This document shows, piece by piece, positions 1,526 to 31,430 of a stretch of 32,397 nt of DNA. Within the stretch, counting starts at the first letter, position 1. Each line of letters starts with the position of its first letter. Position numbers and translations under genes: made by a program. Source of the DNA: Kiritimatiellia bacterium (GTDB lineage Bacteria; Verrucomicrobiota; Kiritimatiellia; RFP12; UBA1067); contig JAGCFB010000090.1 of NCBI GenBank assembly GCA_017650345.1, positions 1-32,397 on the forward strand. The letters are read 5' to 3'. The notes below the pieces were generated by a model, which was given only the letters and a program-made list of their open reading frames with translations, was not told the DNA's origin and made no database searches.

Positions 1526-1549
1526 CTTCCGGCCAATAAGTGGTATAAT
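1520..1549 (+). promoter_or_regulatory. Sigma-70-type promoter of the hydrogenase membrane genes
   Basis: TTTACA at 1520-1525, an 18-nt spacer, then TATAAT at 1544-1549, with the bases TGG directly before the hexamer (extended -10). This is the only promoter in the window with a good -35. Transcription should start near 1556, only about 19 nt before the ATG at 1575 and slightly upstream of an in-frame GTG at 1560. Confidence 0.75.
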
Positions 1550-1574
1550 ATGCGGCCTTGTGCACGTACTAGAC

Positions 1575-13092: not shown

Positions 13093-13101
13093 TGGTATAA
13101 T
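13093..13101 (+). promoter_or_regulatory. Extended -10 promoter giving a leaderless histidine-kinase mRNA
   Basis: TGGTATAAT with a perfect TATAAT at 13096-13101, preceded by ATTTTG. Exactly 9 nt separate the hexamer from ATG 13111, so transcription should begin at or within a few bases of the start codon. No Shine-Dalgarno site exists in that gap. Confidence 0.72.
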
Positions 13102-13110
13102 AGCGTAAGT

Positions 13111-14169
13111 ATGAAAGACTTCTTCAAAGGGGTGCGGCGGCACATCGACAAGATGGACGCGGAGCGCCTGCGCGAACAGTACGCGCGCCTCTCGGACGAG
13201 GCGGTCTCGCTCGACACGCTCTTCAAGACGATAGCCCAGGGCATAATCGTACTCGACGAGCGCGGCGAGATCGTGAAGAGCAACCCGGCCGCCCGCGAGC
13301 TTCTCGGCATGCGCCCGGAGGACGCCCTTCCGTCGCTCTCAGTGCCGCTCGGCAAGGCGTCCAAGCGAGACTTGGACGTCTCGTATCCGCAGGCGCGGAC
13401 GCTGGAGGTGCAAACCGTCCCGATGGATGCCGGAACGCTAGTCTATCTGCGGGACGTCACCGCCGAGCGCGAGCGGACCGAGGAGGAGCTGCGCGCGGGG
13501 GCGACTCAGGCCGTGCGCGACCTGGCCGCCGGTGTTGCGCACGAGATAGGCAATCCGCTGAACGCGCTTTCCCTCAACCTCCAGCTGCTGAACCGCACGC
13601 ACGGACCCGACGACAGCATCGACGAGTGCCTCCGGCAGGTCGAGCGGCTCGCCGGGATAATACACGGATTCCTCCAGGCGCTGAGGCCGTCCAAGCCGAA
13701 CCTTGTCCGCGGATCGGTGGCGGACCCGATAAAGGGCTGCCTGAAAACGATGAGTCCGCAGTTCGAGGAGCGCCGCATCACCGTGACGCTGGACATACAA
13801 AGCGCCATTCCGTCCGTGGCCATCGACACCGCGCAGATGGAGCAGGTCTTCTTCAACCTGCTTAAGAACGCGCTCGAGGCCGTCCCCGACGGCGGCGCGA
13901 TCGACATCGACCTTTCGAGCGACGACAACGACGTCATAACGACGGTTAGGGACAACGGACTTGGCATGGAGCCGGAGCAGGTGGCGCACCTCTTCGAGCC
14001 GTACCGCACCACGAAGGAGCGCGGCACCGGGCTTGGGCTCATGGTGTCCGCCCGGATCGTGCGCGACCACGGCGGGACGATAGCGGTGGAATCCACGCCC
14101 GGGGAGGGAACGACGTTCACGATCCGCCTCCCCCGCATAGAGCGCCGCATCAGGGCGCTCAAGGGCTGA
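13111..14169 (+). CDS. Cytoplasmic PAS-containing histidine kinase (NtrB-like), orphan
   Basis: 352 residues without membrane helices. A short N-terminal helix (8-30), a PAS-like sensor (about 32-118: LFKTIAQGIIVLDERGEIVKSN), a dimerisation helix with the phospho-acceptor in GVAHEIGNPLNAL (His144), and the ATPase domain with the N box FFNLLKNALEA (247-257), G1 DNGLGMEP (281-288), the F box LFEPYRT (294-300) and G2 GTGLGL (305-310). It resembles NtrB/PAS kinases that phosphorylate NtrC-type regulators. No response regulator lies beside it. The longer frame (from 13069) is excluded by the promoter at 13093-13101. Its stop is 9 bp from that of the convergent wzy-like gene, with no terminator between them. 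Confidence 0.9.
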   Translation: MKDFFKGVRRHIDKMDAERLREQYARLSDEAVSLDTLFKTIAQGIIVLDERGEIVKSNPAARELLGMRPEDALPSLSVPLGKASKRDLDVSYPQARTLEVQTVPMDAGTLVYLRDVTAERERTEEELRAGATQAVRDLAAGVAHEIGNPLNALSLNLQLLNRTHGPDDSIDECLRQVERLAGIIHGFLQALRPSKPNLVRGSVADPIKGCLKTMSPQFEERRITVTLDIQSAIPSVAIDTAQMEQVFFNLLKNALEAVPDGGAIDIDLSSDDNDVITTVRDNGLGMEPEQVAHLFEPYRTTKERGTGLGLMVSARIVRDHGGTIAVESTPGEGTTFTIRLPRIERRIRALKG

Positions 14170-30134: not shown

Positions 30135-30143
30135 ATTATATCA
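30135..30143 (-). promoter_or_regulatory. Extended -10 promoter of metG, inside the upstream stop codon
   Basis: Minus strand reads TGATATAAT after CAAATT. The TAA stop of the PH-like gene (30138-30136) lies within the hexamer, as for rfbD/tolC. A weak TTGGCT lies 19 nt upstream. The leader is about 22 nt. Confidence 0.7.
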
Positions 30144-30807
30144 AATTTGCGCCATTCTTAGCCAACGGACGGGCCTGCATCGCAAAGCGCAGGATGTCCG
30201 CCGCGACGAGCGGATTCCGGAACGTGAAGGCGACGCGCACGGGCTTCCCGCAGCGGGCGGCGTCGAAGACGAGTCCGCCAGGCGACTCCGAGAACGAACG
30301 CAGCTCGGCGAACGGAATCTCCCACGAACAGCCCTTGGCCGCAAAGACGATCTTCCTGTCCGTAACGTAGCAGTGCGTGCGCTGGATGCGTCCGCACGCG
30401 GGGTCGAACCTGGGGAACGCCACGTCGCTCGCGCCACCGCCGCGGACCGCGACGTCGAAGTCGGCGTCCATCGGGACGTACAGCGTCCCCTTCTCGTGCA
30501 GGTATGCGCGCTCGTCGTCGGCAAGCCGAAGGATCGACTTCTTTACAGGTATGGACGCCGGGGACGCCCCGGCGAGCTCCGCGAGCCAGGCGGCGTGGCG
30601 GACCTTGTTCTGGCGCTTGCGACGGGATATCCTGTACCTGACCACCATCGACGGGATGAAGAAGACGAAGACGGCGAAGAGCAGCGCCATCACGCCAAGC
30701 GCGCGCATGAACCACGGCTTGCCGAGATTGCCAAGGTCCTGGTATATGAACCAGAACATTCCGCCGAGGAACACGAATGCTATCAGTTTTCTTAGTGCGT
30801 AGATCAC
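30136..30807 (-). CDS. Membrane protein with two N-terminal helices and a PH-like domain
   Basis: 223 residues from GTG 30807. Two membrane helices (about 6-24 and 33-55) are followed by a basic stretch (RYRISRRKRQNK) and a cytoplasmic domain. Its C-terminal part (about 140-220: RTHCYVTDRKIVFAAK, then EIPFAELRSFSES and VAFTFRNPLVAADILRFAM) fits the bacterial PH/GRAM-like beta fold plus helix. No function is recognised. The open frame reaches 30852, but the promoter at 30817-30825 lies downstream of that; GTG 30807 sits 9 nt after its TATAAT with no ribosome site, so a leaderless message is likely. Confidence 0.72.
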   Translation of the reverse strand: MIYALRKLIAFVFLGGMFWFIYQDLGNLGKPWFMRALGVMALLFAVFVFFIPSMVVRYRISRRKRQNKVRHAAWLAELAGASPASIPVKKSILRLADDERAYLHEKGTLYVPMDADFDVAVRGGGASDVAFPRFDPACGRIQRTHCYVTDRKIVFAAKGCSWEIPFAELRSFSESPGGLVFDAARCGKPVRVAFTFRNPLVAADILRFAMQARPLAKNGANLI

Positions 30808-30816
30808 AGTTCGGAA

Positions 30817-30825
30817 ATTATACCA
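30817..30825 (-). promoter_or_regulatory. Extended -10 promoter giving a leaderless mRNA for the PH-like gene
   Basis: Minus strand reads TGGTATAAT preceded by GATTA, just 5 bp beyond the thiamin pyrophosphokinase stop. Exactly 9 nt separate the hexamer from GTG 30807, the same spacing as at the histidine kinase. Confidence 0.7.
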
Positions 30826-30830
30826 TAATC

Positions 30831-31430
30831 TCAAAAGGCGATGAACACGCAAACCTTGCGGGACGCCTCGAGCCGGACGACGACGGACGACGCGCGGTTC
30901 AGCGTGGCGCAGTACAGGTTGTCGAAGCGGACGCCGTCGAGCGGCCAGACGAGGCCCTTCGACGTCATGCGCGTATCGCGATCCGGCGCGAAGACCGACA
31001 CCGCCGCGCCTTTCCGCACGCGAAGCGACGCGCGGCCTTCGACCGGGACGAACCGTCCGTGGTCGGTGACGATTTCGAGTCCGAGGTCCAGCGCGCGGAA
31101 CACGTTGCCGATCGTGTGGTCCTCGCGGCGACCCGTCGCGCCGAGCAACACGGGCTTCCTCCAGCCGCGTTCCGCGCAGTAGCGCGCCGCCTTTGCGAGG
31201 TCGTTCGTGTCCTGCTCCGCGACCTTCACGACGTTCGCGAAGCGTCCGCGCAGCGAATCGCAGTCCCCTACGACGGCGTCCGGCTCCCTTCGCAGGTTGC
31301 GCCTCAGTGCGTCCGCCGCGCCGTCGCAGCAGACGATGCGTACGGCGGACTCCAGGATCCGCCGCGCTTCGCCGCCGCGCCTGGGGAAGTCACCGGCCGC
31401 AAGTATTACGGTCGCTCCTCCTGCTGACAT
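30831..31430 (-). CDS. Thiamin pyrophosphokinase
   Basis: 199 residues; transfers pyrophosphate from ATP to thiamin to give the cofactor TPP. Seen: VCCDGAADAL near 35, the Asp-rich VVGDCDSL near 58, DTNDLAKA near 75, GATGRREDHTIGN near 98 and the C-terminal TSKGLVWPLDG. The usual S-N after this motif reads D-N here. ATG 31430 is 1 bp after the stop of the preceding gene, with AGGGGG upstream; the Arg-rich frame to 31634 is shadow. Thiamin salvage rather than synthesis is suggested, but no thi genes or TPP riboswitch are here. Confidence 0.87.
   Translation of the reverse strand: MSAGGATVILAAGDFPRRGGEARRILESAVRIVCCDGAADALRRNLRREPDAVVGDCDSLRGRFANVVKVAEQDTNDLAKAARYCAERGWRKPVLLGATGRREDHTIGNVFRALDLGLEIVTDHGRFVPVEGRASLRVRKGAAVSVFAPDRDTRMTSKGLVWPLDGVRFDNLYCATLNRASSVVVRLEASRKVCVFIAF

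Follow-up and report, generated by a model that had tools for sequence, protein, structure and literature searches.

A gene for a PH-like protein in a Kiritimatiellia bacterium is very probably leaderless or near-leaderless, with a predicted leader of 0–4 nt, an extended −10 element of its own and a GTG start codon, and we put the probability of this reading at about 0.85 because the layout is conserved in orthologues, starts adjoining a −10 element are enriched as a class in the genome and a Shine-Dalgarno (SD) motif is absent. The window, that is, the whole stretch of 32,397 nt analyzed here, comprises the complete contig C33 of a genome of 1.44 Mb that is 65% complete. For genome-wide counts, a sample of 444,779 bases on 41 of the 103 contigs, picked by number and not by content, was used, in which 318 starts were called by a purpose-written coding-score gene caller blind to promoter and SD signals.

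Layout of the PH-like gene locus

The arrangement of hexamer, 9-nt spacer and GTG codon that a sequence-only reading had placed at the PH-like gene was confirmed on the minus strand with the same coordinates and spacing (Table 1). A TGn directly precedes the TATAAT hexamer, which makes the element TGGTATAAT an extended −10 by the promoter definition employed, and its distance of 9 nt from the codon falls within the roughly 6–10 nt by which TA-led leaderless genes are recognized. No SD motif is found in the sequence ahead of the GTG codon, from which an open frame of 223 codons extends. Rfam gave no match in the window at gathering score.

Table 1. Positions of the elements discussed, numbered along the window.
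Feature	Positions	Strand	Remarks
Extended −10 TGGTATAAT	30817..30825	minus	hexamer TATAAT at 30822-30817; T/A-rich sequence upstream of the element
9-nt spacer TTCCGAACT	30808..30816	minus	separates the −10 from the start codon; without Shine-Dalgarno motif
GTG start codon of the PH-like gene	30805..30807	minus	independent choice of the coding-score caller; aligned with the starts of 25 other orthologue loci
PH-like gene (223 aa)	30136..30807	minus	two N-terminal helices and a PH/PTB-type domain, as predicted
thiN-like gene (thiamin pyrophosphokinase)	30831..31430	minus	Pfam PF04263, PF21275; upstream neighbor
Putative histidine kinase gene: TGGTATAAT, 9 nt, ATG 13111	13093..13113	plus	TATAAT at 13096-13101
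hyfB-like gene (proton-antiporter family, PF00361): TGGTATAAT, 10 nt, GTG 1560	1541..1562	plus	TATAAT at 1544-1549

Conservation among orthologues

The layout was compared across 26 loci, namely the window and 25 from public genomes, the latter being metagenome-assembled genomes (MAGs) titled Kiritimatiellae, Verrucomicrobia, Lentisphaerae or uncultured bacterium, many of them from goat, sheep or yak gut or from the RUG series, which we take to be rumen genomes. At 17 of the 26 loci, TGNTATA[AC]T stands 7–9 nt before an RTG codon opening the same N-terminus. The spacing is 7 nt at 13 loci, 8 nt at three and 9 nt at one, the latter being the window, which thus has the longest spacing of the set. 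GTG serves as start codon at 12 of these loci and ATG at five, TTG at none. The base preceding the codon is C or T at all 17, which would let the transcript begin at a pyrimidine-purine step on the codon itself; the rows are related, however, and do not represent 17 independent cases. AAGG occurs inside the spacer at two of the 17 (L100 and L103). Among the remaining nine loci (starts ATG 5, GTG 2, TTG 2), five carry an SD-like motif (L087, L088, L092, L093 and L098), L106 has a spacing of 13 nt, L097 combines GTG with a degenerate −10, and L104 and L105 show neither the −10 layout nor an SD motif.

In a maximum-likelihood tree, all 17 loci fall together with L093 and L097 into one clade (support 97/97), within which ATG and GTG have been exchanged repeatedly; the exact place of the window row is unsure because of its long branch. 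Mapping the leaderless-GTG label onto this tree needs six changes, at least five of which are forced by well supported branches. The conserved N-terminus [V/M]IYALRKLIAFVFLGGMFWF starts precisely at the GTG column, and residues upstream of this column are not kept in the orthologues. At L082, only three in-frame codons, none of them a start codon, lie between the upstream stop and the start.

These observations bear on the most serious alternative, according to which expression of the PH-like gene stems mainly from read-through out of the thiN operon, with coupled translation starting at GTG 30807 or TTG 30834 and TGGTATAAT being incidental or secondary. The local arrangement would allow this, as the thiN stop codon ends at 30831, 23 nt ahead of the GTG, TTG 30834 overlaps that stop (TTGA) and the frame is open upstream through the in-frame codons TTG 30834 and TTG 30852. 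However, an SD motif is missing before the upstream TTG as well as before the GTG, translation from further upstream is at odds with the lack of conserved residues there and with the L082 locus, and no homologues of the three neighboring genes (metG, thiN and the next one) were found in any of the 25 other loci (flanks up to about 1.5 kb, shorter in some), while the −10 at 7–9 nt is kept in 16 of these 25. As the neighboring genes are absent from the flanks of all these loci, the −10 is to be assigned to the PH-like gene itself and not to a shared operon, so that read-through appears unlikely.

Two side observations were made among the orthologues. At L098, a short frame overlapping the PH-like gene has its ATG 7 nt after a TATAAT, just upstream of position 1501, and the PH-like gene itself starts with TTG behind an SD-like motif; this looks like a leaderless start that has been turned into a leader. 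Moreover, L093 and L103, a leadered TTG version and a leaderless GTG version, respectively, occur in one MAG (CAMORM), which could reflect either two gene copies or mixed strains.

A class of −10-adjacent starts in the genome and genus

Within the genus, the PH-like gene would belong to a class of genes arranged in this way, most of which start with ATG. In the genome sample, TATAAT occurs 86 times, 68 of these with a preceding TGn, giving 68 occurrences of TGNTATAAT in 445 kb on both strands. Among 66 occurrences near called starts, 17 lie at a distance of 6–10 nt (16 ATG and one GTG, the PH-like gene), none at 0–5 nt and one at −2, while the rest are at 13 nt or more, many of them with an SD motif. 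Counted from the genes, TGNTATAAT is found 6–10 nt before 16 of the 318 called starts, whereas 72 shifted controls gave 0.15 on average and never more than 2. In the sample as a whole, ATG follows TGNTATAAT at 6 nt in six cases, at 7 nt in ten, at 8 nt in seven, at 9 nt in four and at 10 nt in two. When TATACT is also allowed, the class amounts to 20 called genes, with 19 ATG, one GTG and no TTG, so that this genome fits the earlier suggestion of leaderless messages starting less often with GTG than with ATG. None of the 20 has an SD-like motif, in contrast to 174 of the 298 other genes (Fisher test, 6e-8), the background being 259 of 1272 positions within genes. A pyrimidine precedes the start in 13 of the 20. 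GTG opens one of the 20 genes versus 63 of the other 298 (Fisher test, P 0.09, with a single GTG case on the leaderless side). The −35 signal is weak, with a match of at least four letters to TTGACA at 18 of the 68 sites versus 20 of 272 control positions. From the same sample, the main promoter type of the genus is seen as a T-rich stretch followed by TGGTATAATA, with a weak −35.

The pattern extends over 35 genomes of the genus, in which TGGTATAATN{6,10}ATG gives 2908 matches (overlapping spacings may be double-counted); it is present in all of them at 4 to 179 matches each, and the reversed pattern is nearly absent. For GTG, however, no enrichment at 6–10 nt from TGGTATAAT over 16–20 nt is observed in these 35 genomes, since TGGTATAATN{6,10}GTG yields 306 matches versus 398 for the N{16,20} control. 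As the bare GTG pattern is not enriched and the class consists mostly of ATG genes, any single GTG case needs its own proof; the PH-like GTG stands above chance because it is conserved in orthologues.

This is also the point on which a chance juxtaposition of a −10 and a GTG in an A+T-richer spacer has to be judged. The genus-wide GTG counts, not exceeding the spacing control, would be compatible with such a coincidence, but the layout recurs at 17 of the 26 loci in unlike contexts and TGNTATAAT is rare in the sample, yet is concentrated in front of called starts, so that coincidence is very improbable at the PH-like gene.

Elsewhere in the order and class, TGGTATAATN{6,10}ATG is common in a few further genera (g6, g14 and g45) and near zero in most, hence the trait is patchy, with the reservation that this count is tied to the exact string and relatives with a different −10 would be missed. 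In these genera, 28–53 matches of TGGTATAAT followed by ATG at 6–10 nt were obtained for G039 and G048 (g6), G129 (g14) and G085 (g45).

Regarding further GTG cases, five TGNTATA[AC]T sites in the sample have a GTG at 6–10 nt, two of which are real candidates, the hyfB-like and the PH-like gene. The other three were rejected, opening frames of only 5, 9 and 25 codons. Likewise, the only other GTG that this genome has at a distance of exactly 9 nt, on contig C4, opens a frame of six codons, with a 464-codon ATG frame lying further down. Among 22 GTG-pattern loci (L060-L081, with L060-L072 from the same genus), 11 have open frames of at least 170 codons, and further leaderless GTG genes are likely among these candidates.

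TTG is not seen among the leaderless-type starts, whether in the orthologues (0/17 versus 2/9 of the others, L093 and L098) or in the genome sample (0/20 versus 14/298), both comparisons resting on small numbers. L093, the orthologue with a leadered TTG start, sits inside the leaderless clade. As a tentative idea, leaderless starts in this genus might be doubly constrained, the codon having to provide the first purine of the RNA as well as the ribosome start; ATG and GTG could then be exchanged freely, TTG might be adopted only after gaining an SD leader, and the GTG of the PH-like gene could represent a low-output setting that has been kept.

Presumed transcription and translation starts

According to the leaderless or near-leaderless reading, the PH-like gene would be transcribed from its own TGGTATAAT promoter adjoining the reading frame, presumably by RNA polymerase with a sigma factor of the sigma-70 type, starting at the G of the GTG codon or up to about 4 nt earlier. 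In sigma-70 promoters, the usual start point is about 7 nt past the hexamer. With the 7-nt spacing prevailing in the orthologues, this point would land on the codon or one base before it. With the 9 nt of the window, a leader of 3–4 nt (from A30810 or A30811) is as compatible as a strictly leaderless mRNA, and G30807, A30810 and A30811 are the candidate 5′ ends. Hence, of the earlier proposal of a leaderless GTG message, the start column, the −10 and the RTG codon are borne out by 17 of the 26 loci, but strict leaderlessness is not singled out, and as the spacing fits all three positions, the wording "leaderless or near-leaderless" is used here. As there is no room for an SD motif, a ribosome, probably a 70S particle carrying fMet-tRNA, is proposed to initiate at the 5′-terminal GUG.

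Translation starting downstream on a short-leader mRNA, at the in-frame codons ATG 30759 (codon 17) or GTG 30774 (codon 12), is most improbable, because residues 3, 5–10, 13, 14 and 16, which would then be lost, are invariant in 20 aligned proteins, indicating that the N-terminus is under selection, and no clear SD motif was found before either codon.

Relation to known leaderless systems

A leaderless or near-leaderless GTG start is an already known mode, to which the PH-like gene very probably adds a case in a lineage where genes of this kind form a marked class. An ATG or GTG located at the RNA 5′ end is described as necessary and sufficient for the start in mycobacteria (Shell et al. 2015, PMC4633059). 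Resemblances to the case presented here are an RTG at the RNA 5′ end, a −10 just upstream and the ineffectiveness of TTG at this place (PMC4633059, PMC3898074), and a figure legend gives a preferred cytosine at −1, to be compared with the pyrimidine found throughout the PH-like layout (PMC4633059, PMC3898074). In contrast, the mycobacterial −10 is given as TANNNT, with 7% bearing TGN, whereas here it is TGNTATAAT (PMC4633059, PMC3898074). Furthermore, ATG and GTG frequencies are said to be similar in leaderless and leadered mycobacterial genes (Cortes et al. 2013, PMC3898074), unlike the scarcity of GTG among leaderless-type genes in our sample.

In Deinococcus-Thermus, a −10 about 6–7 bp before the ORF likewise gives leaderless mRNA, mostly without a classical −35, and pprI is described as a −10-adjacent case with GTG (PMC12340547). 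That group, however, belongs to another phylum, and almost one-third of the D. radiodurans ORFs are concerned; neither "Verrucomicrob" nor "Kiritimatiell" is mentioned in the main text of that article. TA-led leaderless genes have been predicted in many bacteria by Zheng et al. 2011 (PMC3160421), where a TA-like signal about 10–12 bp before the start replaces the SD motif, while the PH-like gene has an extended −10 as its signal; the main text of that article does not mention "Verrucomicrob" or "Lentisphaer". In the available portion of PMC10783764, Kiritimatiellae are present only in the antiSD table, and a search of open-licence papers yielded no report of leaderless starts or such promoters in Kiritimatiellae, nor one dealing with leaderless genes and promoters in Verrucomicrobia.

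The PH-like gene adds a well-supported GTG case together with a genome-wide −10-adjacent class in uncultured ruminant-gut bacteria, and starts of this kind may be misplaced by gene callers leaning on SD motifs. In addition, the orthologues of this one gene, some leaderless with either ATG or GTG and others led by an SD motif, offer a natural series for studying how the mode of translation start is switched.

The predicted PH-like protein

Modeling with AlphaFold2 (20 sequences, mean pLDDT 84.9) yields helices at residues 2–23 and 31–78, seven strands and a C-terminal helix. With Foldseek, the model resembles PTB/PH domains, the best matches being Dok PTB domains (2v76, E 2.2e-3, probability 1.00), with none at E ≤ 0.001. 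Pfam assigns no family to the window protein at E 0.01, the gathering score not being reached, and a search with 20 members gives weak matches only, such as bPH_3 at E 0.097 in one member. The predicted seven strands and C-terminal helix are shared with bacterial PH-domain (Pfam bPH) proteins and the PH/PTB superfold, so that the name "PH-like" is fair with respect to the modeled fold. Different from the Pfam bPH families, the window protein has no Pfam match above cut-off and its relatives are confined to the genus, bar one marginal match. Of 58 genomes searched, 11 (its own included) encode the protein, all of one genus, and class-wide it occurs in three of 193, the third being the marginal match, which has internal stops. 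Judged by the model and this distribution, it is predicted to be a membrane protein restricted to the genus, in which two helices are combined with a PH/PTB-type fold.

The histidine kinase and hyfB-like genes

The 9-nt spacing that the sequence-only reading had noticed also at the putative histidine kinase gene is indeed identical there, between the hexamer and ATG 13111. As a shared signal it carries little, since distances of 6–9 nt are usual and most of the orthologue loci with this layout (13 of 17) have 7 nt.

A GTG at 1560, 10 nt after the −10 of the hyfB-like gene, was likewise confirmed, and this gene had been suggested as a further leaderless GTG case. The start column is held by three of six close orthologues (L108-L112 and L119), having ATG in L108, L109 and L112, so that, as judged from the alignment, GTG 1560 is a sound predicted start. 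None of these three, however, has a −10 adjacent to the start. In L108, the ATG follows TATAAT at a distance of about 31 nt, with GGAGG, an SD motif, in between; L110, L111, L112 and L119 have TATAAT-like boxes further upstream, and L109 has no clear box. L110 and L111 start three and two residues later, respectively, and L119 is without a clear start column. As the −10-adjacent layout is missing in the supporting orthologues, the leaderless state of hyfB would be specific to this genome and is less certain, but a second leaderless GTG case is plausible, possibly resulting from a recent move to leaderless initiation. The gene is not among the 20 of the class because the caller took an upstream TTG. 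Its orthologues appear as leadered genes with AAAAGAGTATAAT-type boxes, versus a −10 adjoining the GTG in this genome.
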